The translations under genes were made by a program, and so were the position numbers. The notes beneath the pieces were generated by a model. It saw only the letters and a list, made by a program, of their open reading frames with translations, made no database searches and had not been told where the DNA came from. Positions 4,884 to 25,165 of a DNA stretch of 28,021 bases are shown in pieces. Where the stretch lies: IMG/VR virus record IMGVR_UViG_3300046167_000067, positions 1 through 28,021 of that record; one strand, given 5' to 3'. This DNA comes from a virus. How positions within the stretch are numbered: the stretch's first letter is position 1; each line of letters starts with the position of its first letter.

Positions 4884-4941
4884 ACTAGAAACTTTACCTG
4901 AGCAAGTAGACGAAGCACTTAATAGGAAAGATTATGAGTAA
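4708..4941 (+). CDS. Small helical protein overlapping the portal gene end
   Basis: This 77-residue frame overlaps the last 176 bases of the portal gene in a different frame, then continues 58 bases to the next gene. Unlike a chance shadow it has a coherent helical, charged composition (KDKHQWEALKEYLNNLKTLE, then ELDLFRSQGKLSSLARLETL). This resembles small post-portal proteins of marine podophages that carry a WxxLxEYL element and a charged helix ending in a short Leu-rich segment. An AGGA-type ribosome binding site lies about ten bases before ATG 4708. The stop overlaps the start of the next gene (ATGAGTAA at 4934-4941), consistent with coupling. Function is unknown; a head-assembly accessory role is inferred from position only. 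Confidence 0.65.
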   Translation: MLDKALARKLAPMVKDKHQWEALKEYLNNLKTLELQVLVAATSELDLFRSQGKLSSLARLETLPEQVDEALNRKDYE

Positions 4942-5797
4942 GAGTATGTTGAATTTAAAAGATACTGATGCAGCACTAGCTTCGGCTAAAGCTTCAGCAG
5001 AAAACAGTAGAAGGCAAGAACTACTACAGCAACAAAAAAATGCTCAAGCTTTAATGGATGCTGAAGTTCGTCAATTGCAACGTGAAAATAGAGGAATGTC
5101 TGAAGAACAAGCCAGAGAAATTATTTTTATGCAGATGCAAGAAGCTGCTGCTCGGCAAGAAAAACAACCGCTGGCAGAAGGCGGCTTACCAGATCTTACA
5201 GGCGATGGAAAGATTACTCAGGCAGATGTCTTGAAAGGACGTGGAGTATTTAACGAAGGTGGCTCAATGATGATGCCCCCTGAAGGTATGCCAGTAGATA
5301 CCTATCCTAACATACCAGAAGATGAAATGGATGAAGCACTGGCTTCGCAGCTTCCAGATGATGAGATGGAAGACGATTATATTAGTTACGTCATGGATGA
5401 ATCCCTTGACGATGATGAACAAGATTACCTAGCAGGTGTATTACAAAATGATCCAAGACTATCAGATATTTTGGACAAAGTAATTACAGTTGCTAGTGAG
5501 TTTTCGGGTGCTGGAGAAGTCGAAGGCCCCGGAACTGGTGTATCAGATTCTATCCCCGCTCGTTTGAGTGATGGAGAGTTTGTATTTACCAGAAAAGCAA
5601 CCGATCAGATTGGTGCGGATCAGCTTCAAACAATTATGGATGATGCTGAACGTGCTTATGATGGCGGTTATCAAATGAAGGCTATCGGCGGTTATATGCA
5701 AGAAGACCCTGAAGAGCAAGATTCACCCCTCAGTCAAACCGATGAGGAAATCAAGAAGCTCATGATGGGTGCAAATAAGATGCCTAGTCTTCAATAA
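4934..5797 (+). CDS. Post-portal structural protein with dockerin/EF-hand-like loop
   Basis: The 287-residue product has three parts. Residues 12-78 are a Gln/Ala/Glu-rich helix or coiled coil. Residues 87-98 read DLTGDGKITQAD, with Asp, Thr, Asp, Lys, Thr and Asp at loop positions 1, 3, 5, 7, 9 and 12, the pattern of dockerin-type EF-hand calcium loops. The C-terminal third carries EGPGTGVSDSIPARLSDGEF followed by VFTRKATDQIG, a motif I know from many marine phage head-region proteins of unknown function. In between is a strongly acidic stretch (about residues 125-165). It overlaps the preceding gene by eight bases and sits between portal and scaffold, so a virion or head-assembly role is likely. 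The calcium binding is a motif-based inference. Confidence 0.65.
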   Translation: MSKSMLNLKDTDAALASAKASAENSRRQELLQQQKNAQALMDAEVRQLQRENRGMSEEQAREIIFMQMQEAAARQEKQPLAEGGLPDLTGDGKITQADVLKGRGVFNEGGSMMMPPEGMPVDTYPNIPEDEMDEALASQLPDDEMEDDYISYVMDESLDDDEQDYLAGVLQNDPRLSDILDKVITVASEFSGAGEVEGPGTGVSDSIPARLSDGEFVFTRKATDQIGADQLQTIMDDAERAYDGGYQMKAIGGYMQEDPEEQDSPLSQTDEEIKKLMMGANKMPSLQ

Positions 5798-17439: not shown

Positions 17440-17468
17440 TTGACAACCTTCAAAAAATATGCTATAAT
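17440..17468 (+). promoter_or_regulatory. Perfect-consensus sigma70 promoter
   Basis: TTGACA (17440-17445), exactly 17 bases, and TATAAT (17463-17468), with TGC directly before the -10 box, giving an extended -10 element. All twelve consensus bases match. The predicted start near 17475 lies in the AAGGAG (17474-17479) that precedes ATG 17486, so the leader is only about ten bases. It drives the holin-like gene and probably all the ejection-protein genes. Confidence 0.88.
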
Positions 17469-17485: not shown

Positions 17486-17644
17486 ATGGATTTAATTACT
17501 ATTATTAATACTGTTACAACAATTGTTACAGTGGCTTCTATTATTGCAGCTTCAACACCTACTCCTAAAGATGATGAGTGGATTGCAAAGCTTTATAAGT
17601 TTGTAGACTTATTAGCCATTAATATTGGTAAAGCAAAGAAGTAG
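17486..17644 (+). CDS. Holin-like small membrane protein
   Basis: A 52-residue peptide. Residues 3-22 are a clear hydrophobic helix rich in Ile, Val and Thr (LITIINTVTTIVTVASIIAA). Then comes a polar turn STPTPKDDEW and an amphipathic C-terminal helix (IAKLYKFVDLLAINIGKAKK) with a basic end. Size, one transmembrane segment and location next to another single-TM gene fit a small holin or a membrane-located lysis helper; the PTPKDDEW...KLYK...DLLA layout is one I have seen in small TM proteins of marine phages. Start: ATG 17486 with AAGGAG six bases upstream. No endolysin gene is adjacent, which makes the lysis role less certain. Confidence 0.6.
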   Translation: MDLITIINTVTTIVTVASIIAASTPTPKDDEWIAKLYKFVDLLAINIGKAKK

Positions 17645-17881: not shown

Positions 17882-20758
17882 ATGAGTAAAAAAAGAGCCA
17901 GTAGAAATACCAAGAAGGTTTTAAAAGCTTTAAAACGCAAGCGTAAGATGGTTGGCGGCATAGAAACAGGTGATGTAGCTTCTTATTTAGCAGGCGGTGG
18001 AGACTTTGGGGCATTTGATAACTCTATGCCGGGACTAAACTTCAACCCTGCTATGACCTCAATACCTATGGCAATGGGTAATCCTTCTTTGGCTGTTAAT
18101 GGTGTAGGCATGGCAGCAACTCCAAGGATTGAGGGTGTAAATACTGATTTAGGTAGTTTAGATTCTGTCATAGCTCTTGGGATACAGTCTGCGGCTGATG
18201 CAGCTTCAGTTGCTGATCCAGAGCCTAAAAGATCTGATTATTCTGGAGGCATTGGAGGCCAGAATGCGTGGAAAAACGCACACAATGCTTGGAAAGCTAG
18301 GCAGGGTGAAGCTTCTAGAGGAACGTCTTCTAGTCCTAAAATAGGTGATAGGAAGACAGAGAACGGTAAAAACTATATTTATTATGAAGGCATAGGTTGG
18401 GTATATCTACCAGATCCAGAGGCAGAGGAAAATTATACAATGACTGAAGATAAAAAAGAAAGAATTCAGGATACTGCTGAACGTACAGAGAAAATAGCCT
18501 CTGGAGATCCTGATGCATTACAGCCTCCTATGGCTGAGGTTAAAGAAACAGATTCTGCTATTGTAACGGCTGAGAGGGATATAGAAGAAATAAAAGACCG
18601 CGATCCTACCACGAAGCCTGCTGATATTGTATCACAAGATATTACCACCACTACTGGTACTGCTGGAGAGGCTAAAGTAGATGATGCAACATTAACAAAA
18701 GCTGCTACAACAGACACCTACAATGTTAAAAAGGTGGGAGATTTAGACCCCACAAAAGCTGCACAAGGCGTTGTAAGCGATGAAGCTGTTGCGGAGGCTG
18801 TAGGCCCTACACTTACTGAAAGGGCTGTAGCGGCTGAAAGAGATACTGCACAAGAGCAAGCAGCTTTAGCAAGAGAGCAAGACTTTGAAATTTCTGATGG
18901 TGCTTATGTAGATAAAGTAACAGGCAAGACTACTGATGTAGCTCCTACTCCTGAAGCAGAAAAGAATCAACGTGAAGCTATTATTGGAACGCCTGCAACG
19001 GCTGGACAAGCTGCTGAGATTATCGGCATTGTAGGCTACGAGCAGATTAAAAACCGTAGTTACAGTGGAAGAGAGGCAGCAGCCGGTGCTACAAACATGC
19101 TATCAGAACTGGGTAATTTACCTACTAATGTTAGTACATCTATTGTAGAAGACCCTGCAACTGTAGAGGCTCAGTTAGATGAACAGCCTGTAGAAGTACG
19201 TGCAGCAGTAGCGGCATTGCCTACAGAAGCTTTAGTATCTTCACAGATGGAAACTCTTCTAGCAGGCATGGAAGATGGTAAGACTCCTGCGTGGGCTAGG
19301 CCAGCCGTTGCAGCTATTGAGCAGAAACTAGCCGCTAGGGGCCTCTCAGCGTCCACTGTGGGCCGTGACGCACTGTTTAATGCAATCATACAGAGTGCTC
19401 TACCAATGGCTCAGAGCAACGCACAGGCCCTTCAGCAACGTGCTGCACAGAACCTGTCCAATGAGCAGCAAGCTAATCTTACACAGGCTACTCAAGACAT
19501 GCAAAGGCGCATGGCTAACTTGGCTAATAGGCAGACAGCAGAGGGTCAAACTGCACAGTACGCACAACAGATGTCAGTATTGCAGAGTCAGTTCACACAA
19601 CAAGGTGTTATGGCTGAGATGCAGGTTGCTAATGACTTCCTTGCTAGGAATGCAGGTTTTCAACAGCAGATGAATCTTGCTAACTTGTCAAATGATCAAC
19701 AGATGCAGTTGGCTAATTTATCAGCCTTAAATCAAGCTTCGTCAGAAAACTTAACAGCAGAGCAACAAACAGATTTAGCTAATCTGAATACACGTATGCA
19801 GACTAATCTGTTACAAGCCAACTTAGCTCAACAAATGGGAATAGCTCAGTTAAATGTAGATCAACAAAGAGCAGTTCAAAATGCTGCAATGACTGCCCGT
19901 GTAGATCTTACAAAGTTTAATGCAGATCAACAAACTGCTCTAGCTAATAGTAAGTTCATGCAGTCTATGACTATGGCAGACTTTAGTGCTGAACAACAAG
20001 CAGCTATGCAGAATGCTACCATGATGGCTCAGATGGATCTTGCAGCGGCTGATCAACGTACAAAGCTTGCTATTACAAATGCACAAAGCTTTCTAGCAAT
20101 GGATATGGCTAATCTTAGTAATAGACAGCAAGCTAACATACTTGATCAACAGTTAAAGCAGCAGCGTCTTCTCTCGGATCAGTCAGCTACTAATGCTGCA
20201 AGACAATTTAATGCAGCTTCAAAAAATCAAACAGATCAATTCATGGCTAGTCTTGCTTCTAACATGTCCCAGTTCAACACTAGTCAAGCAAATGCTATGG
20301 AGCAGTTTAACAAGTCAGAACTTAACAGAGCATCGGCATTAGAGGCTCAGAATAAACTAGAGGCTGATAAGGCTAATGCAGATATTGCATCTAAGATGAA
20401 TACGTTTGATGCCGAACTACAGTTTAGAACTGATCAGTGGAACGCTGCTAATGCACAGGCTGTAGAGCAGTCAAATATTGAGTGGCGCAGAAAGTCTAAT
20501 ACAATTGATACAGCCGCTCAAAATGCAGCCAACCAGCAGAATGCAAGTTTTGCTTTTAATATGAGTTCAACGGCTCAAGCTCAGTTGTGGCAGGAGCTTA
20601 GAGATCAGGCTACGTTTGATTTTCAAGCTTCACAAGCCGATATAGACCGTAAGGTTAATGTTGTTAATGCTGCGTTAGGTAATGAAGCGTTAATGACAAA
20701 CGATACTTTAAAGCTTGAGAAGGAAAAAATATTTAAATTACTTGACGAGATAAGTTAG
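17882..20758 (+). CDS. Giant hendecad-repeat internal virion protein
   Basis: A 958-residue protein. Residues 1-25 are basic (MSKKRASRNTKKVLKALKRK). Residues 25-510 are low-complexity, Ala/Thr/Glu-rich, partly disordered, with one compact-looking segment (NYIYYEGIGWVYLPDPE). Residues 513-930 form an unbroken array of 38 repeats of exactly 11 residues with Asn or Asp at position 1 in about 26 of them, Gln-rich middles, and mostly Ala, Leu or Phe at position 11 (for example NAASKNQTDQF, MASLASNMSQF, NTSQANAMEQF). Eleven-residue periodicity means a right-handed hendecad coiled coil or a long amphipathic helix. Location among ejection proteins suggests an internal core protein that leaves with the DNA to form a channel or tether. 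No enzyme motif. The start is ATG 17882; the upstream ribosome binding site is weak. Confidence 0.72.
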   Translation: MSKKRASRNTKKVLKALKRKRKMVGGIETGDVASYLAGGGDFGAFDNSMPGLNFNPAMTSIPMAMGNPSLAVNGVGMAATPRIEGVNTDLGSLDSVIALGIQSAADAASVADPEPKRSDYSGGIGGQNAWKNAHNAWKARQGEASRGTSSSPKIGDRKTENGKNYIYYEGIGWVYLPDPEAEENYTMTEDKKERIQDTAERTEKIASGDPDALQPPMAEVKETDSAIVTAERDIEEIKDRDPTTKPADIVSQDITTTTGTAGEAKVDDATLTKAATTDTYNVKKVGDLDPTKAAQGVVSDEAVAEAVGPTLTERAVAAERDTAQEQAALAREQDFEISDGAYVDKVTGKTTDVAPTPEAEKNQREAIIGTPATAGQAAEIIGIVGYEQIKNRSYSGREAAAGATNMLSELGNLPTNVSTSIVEDPATVEAQLDEQPVEVRAAVAALPTEALVSSQMETLLAGMEDGKTPAWARPAVAAIEQKLAARGLSASTVGRDALFNAIIQSALPMAQSNAQALQQRAAQNLSNEQQANLTQATQDMQRRMANLANRQTAEGQTAQYAQQMSVLQSQFTQQGVMAEMQVANDFLARNAGFQQQMNLANLSNDQQMQLANLSALNQASSENLTAEQQTDLANLNTRMQTNLLQANLAQQMGIAQLNVDQQRAVQNAAMTARVDLTKFNADQQTALANSKFMQSMTMADFSAEQQAAMQNATMMAQMDLAAADQRTKLAITNAQSFLAMDMANLSNRQQANILDQQLKQQRLLSDQSATNAARQFNAASKNQTDQFMASLASNMSQFNTSQANAMEQFNKSELNRASALEAQNKLEADKANADIASKMNTFDAELQFRTDQWNAANAQAVEQSNIEWRRKSNTIDTAAQNAANQQNASFAFNMSSTAQAQLWQELRDQATFDFQASQADIDRKVNVVNAALGNEALMTNDTLKLEKEKIFKLLDEIS
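19418..20671 (+). repeat. 38 tandem 11-codon (33-bp) repeats
   Basis: From codon 513 to codon 930 of the preceding gene the protein can be cut into 38 consecutive 11-residue units with no insertion or deletion. Position 1 is Asn in 20 and Asp in 6 units. Neighbouring pairs form 22-residue super-units in several places (for example 656-677, 678-699 and 700-721, with DQQ or EQQ at the same point). The DNA is diverged between units, so the phase is held by protein selection. Confidence 0.8.
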
Positions 20759-20766
20759 GAGTAAGC

Positions 20767-21828
20767 ATGGGATTTTTTAGTAAAGTCTGGAAGGGTGTAA
20801 AGAAGACCTTTAAAAAGATTGGAAGGGGTATTAAAAAAGCCTTTAAGTCTGTGGGTAAATTCATGGGCAAGATTGGTATCTTAGGTACTATTGCGCTTAC
20901 AATCCTTACAGGAGGAATAGCAGGAGGCTTAGGAGGAATGTTTACCAAATTTGGTACTACTTTAGGAAAACTGGGTACTAGTATGGGTGGTGTTACAGGC
21001 AGTATTCTTAAAGGTGCTTCTTGGACTATCGGTAAAGCCGCACAATTCGGCAGTGCAATAAAGAATGGGTTTAGTACACTGACTAAGGGTGTTACTGAAT
21101 TCTTTGGGCAGACGGGTAAGTGGTTGGCTAATAAAATACCCGGAGTAAATATTGAAGGGGCGTCTACTGACTTTCTAGGTAAAGACGGTGTTTGGGCCAG
21201 AACTTCTGAAGCAGTTGCAAAAGAATTTGAAACTTTTCAGGGTAGTGTAGGTGACTTGTTTACTAAGACTTCGCCTACTTTAGAAGCTGGTAAAGCTAAA
21301 TACTTAGAGACAATGCAGTCTACTACGGGTTTAGATAAGAATCTGTTAGAACCTACTGACGGTTATGAATTTAGAGAATTGACTGACGAAGATATTTATA
21401 GATCTGGTACTGCTGACCTTAATGCTGATCCTACAAATATGCCTACTATTCCTAAAGAAGCGCCTGTTCCAGAAGCGGCTGCAGTAGAAGCTCCTAAGAG
21501 AAGTCTTCTTGATAAATATACAGATCCGCAAACATATATTGATGGTGCTGCAAAAATGGCTAGAGAAACTCCCGGTGCAGTAGTTACATCAGTAGGTACT
21601 CAGTTAGCTATGAACGCTATTATGGGTACTCCTGATTATGCTACTGCACCTAGTTTTGGAAGTTATGCACCACAGTTTGCATCGCAGGACTATGGCGCTG
21701 TTCAGCAGGGCCTTACGCCTATGGCAACCGATGGCTATCAAGATATGGTGTTTGCCTATGACGCACTGGGTCAACAAAGCGGTGCTTATGGTAATCTTTA
21801 CAAACAGAGGTTAGGAGCGTTTGCATAA
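20767..21828 (+). CDS. Cationic amphipathic internal virion protein
   Basis: A 353-residue protein. Residues 1-36 are extremely basic and amphipathic (MGFFSKVWKGVKKTFKKIGR, then GIKKAFKSVGKFMGKI), with a lysine/hydrophobic spacing like that of membrane-active peptides. Residues 37-60 (ILGTIALTILTGGIAGGLGG) are a Gly-rich hydrophobic segment, and a further Gly/Lys/Phe-rich amphipathic region runs to about 130. The rest is polar, with an Ala/Pro-rich stretch near residues 220-245. It lies between the hendecad protein and the lysozyme-like protein, so it is probably an ejection protein that inserts in the cell membrane, comparable in role (not sequence) to T7 gp14. The stop of the previous gene supplies TAGGAG as the ribosome binding site. 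Confidence 0.65.
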   Translation: MGFFSKVWKGVKKTFKKIGRGIKKAFKSVGKFMGKIGILGTIALTILTGGIAGGLGGMFTKFGTTLGKLGTSMGGVTGSILKGASWTIGKAAQFGSAIKNGFSTLTKGVTEFFGQTGKWLANKIPGVNIEGASTDFLGKDGVWARTSEAVAKEFETFQGSVGDLFTKTSPTLEAGKAKYLETMQSTTGLDKNLLEPTDGYEFRELTDEDIYRSGTADLNADPTNMPTIPKEAPVPEAAAVEAPKRSLLDKYTDPQTYIDGAAKMARETPGAVVTSVGTQLAMNAIMGTPDYATAPSFGSYAPQFASQDYGAVQQGLTPMATDGYQDMVFAYDALGQQSGAYGNLYKQRLGAFA

Positions 21829-22352
21829 TGGCTGAAGTACAGTATGACAATGATGAGATTGATCAAGTATACAGAGAAAAGGCAGGTCAACTAGCTCGTC
21901 CTGTTCCCGGTGAATCTCTGACAAATGATCCTGAAAACCCTATGCCTTTTGAAAGGGCACCAGAGTACACAGACCTTACAACGGCTCTTGAGTACTACTT
22001 TGCAACCTTTACAGAAGAAGGGACTTATGATCGCCTGCTAGAGACAATCGCAGGTGGTACGCCTATCATGGATATTGTGCAGCTTGTACTATATCAAGGG
22101 TTCCAAGAAGGTCTATTCAACCCTGATCTGATGATGATGCTTGCAGAGCCGTTGGCTTATATGCTGGCAGCTTTCTGTGAGCAAGAGAACATTGAGTTTG
22201 TTATTCAAGCTGATGATGAAGAAGATAGGCAAGAAGAAGAAGAGCAGAGCTTACCTATGATGAAGCAAGCTTTAGGACAGATAAAAGAACCAACGCCTGA
22301 TGTAGTACCTGAACAAGTACAGTCACTACTGGCAGCTAGAGGAGAGCAATAA
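21828..22352 (+). CDS. Small acidic conserved virion-region protein
   Basis: The 174-residue protein begins with a charged stretch and then PGESLTNDPENPMPFERAPE, an element I associate with a conserved protein of unknown function found beside structural genes in marine podo- and myophages. The middle is helical and hydrophobic (IMDIVQLVLYQGFQEGLFNP, then MLAEPLAYMLAAF). The C-terminus is Glu/Asp-rich (EEDRQEEEEQ). No enzyme motif. It could be a chaperone or minor component for the big internal proteins on either side; that is positional inference. TAATG overlaps join it to both neighbours, and TTAGGAG is the ribosome binding site. Confidence 0.6.
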   Translation: MAEVQYDNDEIDQVYREKAGQLARPVPGESLTNDPENPMPFERAPEYTDLTTALEYYFATFTEEGTYDRLLETIAGGTPIMDIVQLVLYQGFQEGLFNPDLMMMLAEPLAYMLAAFCEQENIEFVIQADDEEDRQEEEEQSLPMMKQALGQIKEPTPDVVPEQVQSLLAARGEQ

Positions 22353-25165
22353 TGGCTACACTCGGTGAAGGATACCGCGCACTAGGGGCAGGCATGTCAA
22401 GCCAGTACCAGAGAGACAGAGATGAAATGAAGAAGCTTATGAAGCTTCAGCAGCGTCAGCAGCTTATGACGGCTGCACTGGCTCCTATCGCACAGGGTGT
22501 GGGTCAATTTGCTACTGATCTTATTTCAGCGCCTTTTAAAGAGCCTGCAAAAAGGTTTATGACTACTGACTATGGGCAGCAAATTAAAAGAGCTAAAAAG
22601 ATTAGAAGAGCGCAACAACTTGAATTAGCAACTGAAGCTAAACGTGTCTCTGAATCTGGATTGGATATGATGTCTCTTTATACACGAGAGGCTGGAGAAA
22701 ACATAGATAGAGGTTATGCACAGCAGTTAGGTAAAGAAGAGTACGAAGCAAATAGAGAATTTTATGCTACTTCAAGAGAGGAGGCCGCAAGAAAAAACGC
22801 TGAAAAGCGTTACGAAGCTTATCAGAATGCCTCAAAGAGTTTAAGCCAAACGTACACAGATGAGGAGTATGCAGACGCTATTGCTAAGTATGGCTCTGAA
22901 TCGCCTAATGCTGCGGTTTCTGCGTGGCGTGGAACTAAAAGACTTCTTGGTATAGGTAAAACAAATGAAGAGTTAAGAAGAGAAGCATTTGACAATATTG
23001 TAGACGCTATGGACTTAGGTGCTTTTGTAGATCCTAAAAACCCAAAACTTATTGAATTAAAAAGACAAGTTGAAACTGGGATGAGACCGTTTAATCCTCA
23101 ACAAATTGCAGACCAAATTAGCGAAGATAATAAAAATAATCCTCTTTATCAAACAGCGGTAGCAGCTAAAGAGCAGGCTCTTAAAGATAATGCTTTTTAC
23201 AGGGAGGAATTCGCTACAGAATACGCAGACCTTATATCACAGAGTGGTGGCAGCATTAGAAAAGCTCAAGCTGCTATGCGTGAACGAATAAGAAGCAACT
23301 CTGCTTTGGATGATCCTAGCGTGGATAAGAATCAGCAGGTATATGCAGCTATGTATATAGGTGACGCTACTATTTCTGGGGATGCTATTAGGCAGCTAGA
23401 AGAGGGATTTTACTCTATAGTAACTGGTAATCCTTACGATAGTCTTACCGATGCTGAAATAGATCAACATAAAGAGCAAGTAGATAAACAGGTTAAAGCT
23501 ACAGTAACTAATGTTTATATTGAAGCTACAAGGGCAGCAGAGGCTCAACTTTATAAACTAAGTAAAGAAAATCGTACTGAGTTTGATGCTAAATTTGGGG
23601 ACAGTTCTTTAGCTAAGATAAATAAAGAAGCTCTTATATTAAGAAACATGGACTATTTGATTGAGAATTCTTTGGAAAAAGCTCCTATAACAGTTGATAC
23701 AAAACTTAGCTTTGAAAAAGAAATTTCTGTAGCCACAGGGAGATTAATAAAAACTGGTATACCTGATGATTTTCTGCTTAGACAAGAGGATGCAGAACAA
23801 GCACAGGTGCTAAAAGAAGAGAAAGTTGACCCCCTTCCCGCCGGTTCGGGTGTTCTACTTACTCCTGAGATGTTACGTGAAAGAGAAGATAGAGAGGCTA
23901 AAAAAGCATCAACAACTGAAGCCGTTGGTGTTGATAGTGTGGCAGGTATACAGAAACTTGTAGACCAAGGATTAACCGAAAGGGCTTATTCCGTTGGTAG
24001 AGAAGCTATCAGGCTTGACATTAAAACAAGACAGTTTGAAACCGCTGAAGAAGCTGTAGAGCATGGGCTGGAAATGTCTGCAAGTTTAGGCCAGATGATA
24101 GGTATGCCTGATTTATCAACTGTAAATGGAAGAGCGGCTATAAAAGGCTCTGTATTTGCACAAGACGGAGACACTCAAGAGTTTTCTATTACAGGTAATT
24201 CTGACTCCTTACTGTCTGATTCTTCTGACGTTAGTTACACTTTGTCTTTAGATGGCGGTCAAGTTAATATTGATGTCAACCAAGTAGGGCGTGGTGTTGA
24301 AAGCAAGGCTAGAATTTATTCTAGAAATCCTCTTGCTTTAGAAGATATACCTAATGGTAATATAAAAAATCACTTGACCTATTTGAAAAAGACTTATCAA
24401 GAAAATATTAGTGAACTTGAGTCTATAGGTATAGACGATCCTTCTTCAAGAAGCTTGAGCGGCTTAGGCGGCAGGGCTAGAGAATTGAAGATGATAAACA
24501 ATGAAATTTTAGGTGCCATTGATTTACCGGGAATAGGTGACAGAGGTGATGTCATATCTTTCTTGACAGCTACTCCCATAGAAAAACCTCAGCAAGCTGA
24601 ATCTTTGCTTAGTGCACCTACTGAAGAAGCCCCAGCATCAGTAGACTTTGAAGCTCCTGATGCTTCTACAGTAGAGCAGGTGGCTGCTGAAGTTTCTAAG
24701 TTGTTTAATGATGGAAAGGCTGCTACAGCGTTGCTTAGAGAAACTGCCATACAAGAATCTAATATGGGCCAGACATCTGGTACGTATGATATGGTTAATG
24801 ACCCTAAGTTCGGTAGAGGTAGTTTTGGGGTAGGTCAGGTAGATGAACGAAACTTTGAAGATACAATGTCTCGTCTTCGAGGAGATAAAGGTCAACCTAG
24901 AAATCTTGTTAAATATGTACAGCGTTTCAAAGATGAGCTAGGTATTGACTTGACTGAGGTTGAGTACGAAGATCTGGCTGATCCTAAATTAGGTTTAATA
25001 TTTACAAGGCTTCACTACTTGAAGAACCCAGACCCTGTTCCAACTACAGTACAGGGACGCTCTAAGTATTGGAAGAAGTTTTATAACACCAGTGCAGGTG
25101 CTGGGACTCCTGACGAATATTTAAGTAATCAAGAATCTTATGCTGAAATATATGGGAATGATTAA
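22352..25165 (+). CDS. Internal virion protein with C-terminal lysozyme-like domain
   Basis: A 937-residue protein. The N-terminus (MATLGEGYRALGAGMSSQYQ, then a Gln/Lys-rich helix) and the long helical middle (residues 60-480) look like a virion core protein. The C-terminal ~150 residues resemble a lytic transglycosylase/lysozyme fold: LLRETAIQESNMG with candidate catalytic Glu802 in the AxQES motif, GSFGVGQVD as the counterpart of the GLxQ motif, and a closing KYWKKFYNTSAGAGTPDEYL, which recurs in marine podophage internal proteins. It would cut peptidoglycan locally during DNA entry, as the transglycosylase of T7 gp16 does, but here the domain is at the C-terminus. Ribosome binding site AGAGGAGAG; TAATG overlaps with both neighbours. 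Confidence 0.78.
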   Translation: MATLGEGYRALGAGMSSQYQRDRDEMKKLMKLQQRQQLMTAALAPIAQGVGQFATDLISAPFKEPAKRFMTTDYGQQIKRAKKIRRAQQLELATEAKRVSESGLDMMSLYTREAGENIDRGYAQQLGKEEYEANREFYATSREEAARKNAEKRYEAYQNASKSLSQTYTDEEYADAIAKYGSESPNAAVSAWRGTKRLLGIGKTNEELRREAFDNIVDAMDLGAFVDPKNPKLIELKRQVETGMRPFNPQQIADQISEDNKNNPLYQTAVAAKEQALKDNAFYREEFATEYADLISQSGGSIRKAQAAMRERIRSNSALDDPSVDKNQQVYAAMYIGDATISGDAIRQLEEGFYSIVTGNPYDSLTDAEIDQHKEQVDKQVKATVTNVYIEATRAAEAQLYKLSKENRTEFDAKFGDSSLAKINKEALILRNMDYLIENSLEKAPITVDTKLSFEKEISVATGRLIKTGIPDDFLLRQEDAEQAQVLKEEKVDPLPAGSGVLLTPEMLREREDREAKKASTTEAVGVDSVAGIQKLVDQGLTERAYSVGREAIRLDIKTRQFETAEEAVEHGLEMSASLGQMIGMPDLSTVNGRAAIKGSVFAQDGDTQEFSITGNSDSLLSDSSDVSYTLSLDGGQVNIDVNQVGRGVESKARIYSRNPLALEDIPNGNIKNHLTYLKKTYQENISELESIGIDDPSSRSLSGLGGRARELKMINNEILGAIDLPGIGDRGDVISFLTATPIEKPQQAESLLSAPTEEAPASVDFEAPDASTVEQVAAEVSKLFNDGKAATALLRETAIQESNMGQTSGTYDMVNDPKFGRGSFGVGQVDERNFEDTMSRLRGDKGQPRNLVKYVQRFKDELGIDLTEVEYEDLADPKLGLIFTRLHYLKNPDPVPTTVQGRSKYWKKFYNTSAGAGTPDEYLSNQESYAEIYGND

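Follow-up and report, generated by a model that had tools for sequence, protein, structure and literature searches.

Length steps of whole 11-residue units in a phage hendecad protein suggest a modular rod or tube aiding DNA delivery into the host cell

Gene neighbourhood of the hendecad protein

The window (the whole stretch of viral DNA analysed here, 28,021 nucleotides) encodes a protein of 958 amino acids, here termed the hendecad protein, that carries a long array of 11-residue units (Table 1). Sequence searches with this protein against Pfam, PHROG, NCBIfam and PDB returned no match, and a search of Rfam was also negative. The portal protein of the window is of the SU10 type and the relatives of the phage are of the HMO-2011 type, which have been reported to be short-tailed (PMC9038755); this agrees with the preliminary description of the sequence as that of a podovirus.

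Table 1. Features of the hendecad protein and its gene neighbourhood (coordinates of the window)
Feature	Position	Strand	Basis or remark
Probable module promoter, exact sigma-70 consensus TTGACA-17-TATAAT with extended TG	17440..17468	+	12/12 matches; consensus match only
52-aa ORF, hydrophobic N-terminal half	17486..17644	+	
77-aa ORF, helical N-terminal part, C-terminal TM-like segment	17645..17878	+	
Hendecad protein, 958 aa	17882..20758	+	ORF call; relatives share start MS.KR..RN.KK.LK.L
N-terminal part, aa 1-425: basic start, then tract	17882..19156	+	Tract length unconstrained in relatives
Conserved pre-array domain, aa 426-512, ending at LPMAQS anchor	19157..19417	+	Conservation in relatives
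Array region I, aa 513-754: 22 units, 22-residue A/B alternation (NAQxFLQMDMA / NLSNEQQxxLA type)	19418..20143	+	
Array region II, aa 755-930: 16 units, F or W often at position 11	20144..20671	+	
353-aa candidate membrane component with a cationic amphipathic N terminus and a single TM-like segment	20767..21828	+	
174-aa protein	21828..22352	+	Same order in relatives
937-aa protein	22352..25165	+	C-terminal domain 779-929 matches phrog_3108
T7 gp16-type internal virion protein, truncated at contig end	25165..28020	+	phrog_342 'internal virion protein with endolysin domain', E 4.2e-19 and 2.6e-21

The putative promoter is the sole exact TTGACA-17-TATAAT match in the window, against 0.03 expected by chance. 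The two small ORFs that follow it separate the tail genes from the hendecad gene and are holin- or spanin-like by appearance only. Downstream, the N terminus of the 353-aa protein (20767-20900, + strand) contains cationic amphipathic repeats (MGFFSKVWKGVKKTFKKIGRGIKKAFKSVG) with a lag-11 signal of their own and resembles membrane-active peptides; no homologue of this protein was identified among phage records. The C-terminal domain of the 937-aa protein possesses an ES...GxGQ motif that by eye is possibly transglycosylase-like, with no Pfam match. Elsewhere in the window, a 287-aa acidic protein in the scaffold position (4934-5797, + strand) gave weak matches to several tape measure profiles, which probably reflect its composition.

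The gene order is conserved among the isolates, with the hendecad gene followed by one or more small genes, a gene for a protein of about 170 aa, a variable protein and a large protein; in phage CRP-603 a cell-wall hydrolase gene (Hydrolase_2) directly follows the hendecad gene. With gp16-like and cell-wall hydrolase genes alongside it, the hendecad gene lies where a gene of a podovirus ejection module is expected and, judged by its neighbours, opens an ejection-type module of HMO-2011-type phages. By synteny, its product is plausibly an ejected core protein, as had been supposed. Additional genes were seen around it in two relatives: a gene annotated as a toxin-activating lysine-acyltransferase is inserted directly after it in HTVC115P (L165, 4522-4971), and two 2OG-Fe(II) oxygenase genes and a putative ferrochelatase gene lie just upstream of it in the SAR11 phage HTVC033P (L068, 4106-6220). 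Vibrio phage Peru-2, also considered, has an unrelated T7-like system.

Two described ejection systems share features with this module. Phage SU10 possesses five ejection proteins (gp20-24), including a transglycosylase (PMC9509320), and the window phage has in common with SU10/Kuravirus the portal type and five ejection-module genes after the tail genes, the transglycosylase here being a possible domain. Phrog_4287, which represents SU10 gp21/gp22, had no match in the window or in any HMO-2011-type record tested; these two SU10 proteins display no lag-11 signal, hhalign found no similarity between them and the hendecad protein, and a search for relatives of gp22 retrieved only near-identical copies. 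The operon logic is also similar to that of the T7 gp14-gp15-gp16 ejectosome, the last gene of the window being of the gp16 type, while hhalign detected no similarity of the hendecad protein to T7 gp14 or gp15.

Periodicity and length of the array

The 11-residue phase described for residues 513-930 (window 19418-20671) is unbroken, with zero phase breaks, and when the segment is split into elevens from residue 513, 26 of the 38 units start with Asn or Asp (N in 20, D in 6), as first counted. Hydropathy autocorrelation, the check proposed for this claim, shows a peak at lag 11 (0.277, z 5.6 against composition shuffles) and further peaks at lags 22, 33 and 44. A cyclic 11-state HMM, which permits phase jumps, nevertheless placed a single segment at 509-920 (37.5 units) without one. 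The maximum of residue identity falls at lag 22 (0.222, z 8.3), lag 11 giving 0.172 (z 4.7). The array is bipartite: for aa 513-754 an A/B alternation with a period of 22 residues is the better description, while aa 755-930 consist of true 11-residue units. In the latter region the position-11 aromatics of the window protein are F776, F787, F798, F809, F842 and W853, and runs of F/W at lag 11 reach four in this protein and up to six in relatives, against three in shuffles.

Relatives were gathered from viral contigs, isolates and genome bins, and array length was taken between two anchors, namely profiles of the pre-array domain and of the array-end segment, each placed independently in every protein. 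In each of the 124 non-redundant relatives the distance between anchors is divisible by 11 without remainder. This figure is not a simple probability because the relatives share ancestry, but identity to the window protein falls to about 25%. The same phase is kept in all measured copies from genome bins (phage-like contigs in marine genome bins, found by a close-relative alignment scan and used for lengths only) and in 23 of 23 isolates in which the array was located; isolate CRP-212 yielded no anchor pair and is outside these 23. The 124 relatives show 20 distinct array lengths between 187 and 902 aa (17-82 units), the commonest being 42 units (50/124), and a 23-unit array among the isolates raises the number of distinct lengths to 21. 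Odd unit numbers occur (17, 19, 23, 25, 31, 41, 43 and 45). In contrast, the N-terminal parts of the same 124 proteins have 105 distinct lengths that follow no mod-11 rule, and nor do the C-terminal parts.

Whole units are also what unequal recombination between repeats would produce unaided, but it leaves unexplained the absence of other indels, of which there are many in the neighbouring regions. These length steps suggest a modular rod or tube that aids delivery of phage DNA into the host cell. Among the longer arrays a series of 42, 52, 62, 72 and 82 units was observed, in steps of 10 (62 in L116, 72 in L130 and 82 in L149, L102 and L124), and long arrays contain internal super-repeats of 110 and 55 residues. 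Several relatives (L152-L162) are on contigs filed under genome bins of Maricaulis, Campylobacteraceae and Flavobacteriales and are probably misbinned phage contigs.

Helical geometry and predicted structure

Proline occurs once in 52,430 array residues (0.002%), compared with 6.2% in the N-terminal parts, and cysteine is absent from the same 52,430 residues. The arrays are rich in amides (Q 17.7%, N 13.1%), hold 1.1% Gly and have few Lys or Arg. Drawn as a helical wheel with three turns for every 11 residues, the units show two opposed hydrophobic stripes, one formed by positions 10 and 2 and the other by positions 8, 4 and 11. For the window array the one-sided component (h1) is 0.027 (shuffle mean 0.129) and the two-sided component (h2) is 0.667 (shuffle maximum 0.444), with family values of 0.028 and 0.646, respectively; h2 exceeds all 2,000 residue shuffles, while on permuting the 11 position labels h2 alone is not significant (P 0.16). 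Stripes on two opposed sides rather than on one face argue against an amphipathic helix lying on a membrane and fit a tube or sheet in which helices pack against one another laterally. The amides are mostly at positions 1, 6 and 7, with position 3 next. Of the two arcs that separate the stripes, the shorter one (positions 3 and 7) has a high content of N/Q/S/T, its two positions being 40% and 57% N/Q and 8-9% acidic, and may face a lumen, while on the wider arc charges are concentrated at positions 5 and 9.

AlphaFold2 monomer models were obtained for aa 400-958 (35 sequences, mean pLDDT 54) and for aa 639-958 (98 sequences, mean pLDDT 68). The first has a near-continuous helix at aa 746-933 and the second a helix at aa 781-933 with one short break near 823, so that in both the last 150-190 or so array residues are a nearly unbroken helix. 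Region I is modelled as helix-loop units spaced by 22 residues, with pLDDT of about 54-74 in the 98-sequence model. A Foldseek comparison of the model with the PDB gave no significant match, so that no fold was assigned and no solenoid was matched. The helix of about 60 nm put forward in the preliminary description is arithmetic on one straight helix, of which the models back, at modest confidence, approximately residues 746-933, whereas region I appears there as helix-loop units; in the assembled state the helix may be continuous, for which the exclusion of proline argues.

Possible function of the array

The best explanation, which we hold tentatively, is that the hendecad protein is a structural protein of the ejection module whose array forms a tube or rod acting as a conduit for DNA, similar in its working to protein H of phage phiX174. 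The protein would be stored in the virion and released ahead of the DNA, and its array helices would associate laterally with one another along the two opposed hydrophobic stripes, giving a tube or rod that lines or extends the DNA conduit from the short tail to the cell interior. This supposes a continuous helix along all of region I, an oligomer, ejection and contact with DNA. As each unit would add an equal rise and rotation (11 residues, three turns), length would be free to vary in whole units, while other indels would be purged because one stripe would lose register with its neighbours. Of the roles proposed earlier, that of a tube wall is the best supported, by the two opposed stripes, the near-absence of proline and the amide-rich arc; the tube itself we infer.

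In phiX174 H, hendecads have been described to contribute to a decameric tube that has an N/Q/R lining and serves as a DNA conduit across the envelope (PMC7354561). Its tube domain (PDB 4JPP/4JPN) has in common with the array protein the hendecads, polar N/Q-rich positions and hydrophobic flanks. However, H has three hendecads followed by heptads in 121 residues, compared with 17-82 hendecads here, and belongs to an ssDNA microvirus rather than a dsDNA podovirus; hhalign gave no sequence homology between the two (probability 1.2%, E 0.046). Counting against a tube are the longest arrays (82 units), which as a straight tube of about 135 nm would far exceed the cell envelope, the lack of sequence homology to H, to T7 gp14/gp15 and to SU10 gp21/gp22, the low to modest confidence of the AlphaFold2 models and their rendering of region I as helix-loop 22-mers, the negative comparison with solved structures, and the P of 0.16 for the two-sided component when position labels are permuted.

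Tape measure proteins of long-tailed phages have been reported to possess a variable number of 11-residue repeats marked by F/W (PMC3271669), and the hendecad protein shares with them both the varying unit number and the lag-11 F/W of region II (runs to six versus three in shuffles). It may therefore be a tape-measure-like scaffold, an extended helical rod in which the number of units sets the length of an internal core or ejection channel, a reading also favoured by the length steps of 10 units. We consider it unlikely, since no tape-measure family matches the protein and these short-tailed phages have no long tail to measure: phage MQM1 has a 9.2-nm tail and a 70.6-nm head (PMC10410586), while its array of 20 units would extend for about 33 nm, so that array length does not scale with the tail in this single phage compared. 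Moreover, among phages that share the host strain FZCC0040 the array has either 18 or 23 units. The same two comparisons bear on the earlier suggestion of a molecular ruler: the array is modular, as a ruler would be, but the MQM1 mismatch disfavours a ruler of tail length and the FZCC0040 phages one of the host envelope. Likewise, with arrays of 28-135 nm across relatives, a simple rule by which the helix spans a Gram-negative envelope is improbable. That the head of MQM1 is about 70 nm across also means that a rigid rod of 60-135 nm would hardly fit straight inside it and that the array must be bent or folded in the virion. This would suit an internal core or packaging-side protein whose helices wrap the portal or coaxial DNA in the head, bind through their amide-rich arc and are released without assembling into a tube, for which the N/Q-rich surface and a module shared with a T7 gp16-like gene also speak. 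Such a role is rather unlikely, as DNA binding is conjectural and the role alone leaves whole-hendecad indels over such divergence unexplained.

Location directly after the tail-fibre genes might instead point to an external fibre or stalk, that is, a parallel coiled coil at the tail with stalk-like variation in whole units, and the homologue of phage CRP-3 (L067) ends in a Peptidase_S74 fibre chaperone domain. This domain was found in one of 17 relatives scanned, CRP-3 itself, and is absent from the window protein; a single-core trimer would show a strong one-sided component, which is near zero here, and the gene order groups the hendecad gene with ejection-type genes, all of which make a fibre improbable. 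Region I might also be a solenoid built from helix-loop units of 22 residues, a long helix being confined to region II, which would account for the spacing of region I helices by 22 in the 98-sequence AlphaFold2 model and for the maximum of identity at lag 22. Loops of helix-loop solenoids normally tolerate Pro and Gly, however, and the scarcity of both in the array, the odd unit numbers and the failure to match any PDB solenoid leave this reading quite improbable. A membrane-lying amphipathic helix like the repeats of apolipoproteins, also raised in the preliminary description, or like the 11-mers of perilipin could be suspected from the 11-residue period, the basic N-terminal segment and the membrane-type neighbour gene, yet it is very improbable given the few Lys/Arg of the array and the absence of a one-sided hydrophobic face, h1 being below the shuffle mean and h2 above the shuffle maximum.

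The hendecad protein is thus best explained, by analogy, as one whose action would resemble that of the phiX174 H tube or of a tape-measure repeat, belonging by sequence to neither family. If the preferred reading of an ejected tube or rod is correct, it might represent a new class of delivery tube in dsDNA podoviruses, with one very long hendecad helix per subunit and a length of approximately 28-135 nm set in exact whole units, independent of tail length and host strain; we regard this as a somewhat doubtful possibility. That lengths differ strictly by whole hendecads, even where identity is as low as about 25%, indicates in quantitative terms that the array acts as a helix whose neighbours are fixed, and it singles out a gene for experiments. 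Furthermore, the relatives provide a natural series of one structure from 17 to 82 units, in which unit number can be directly measured against a particle or channel dimension, and the carriers of this series are abundant short-tailed phages of the ocean.
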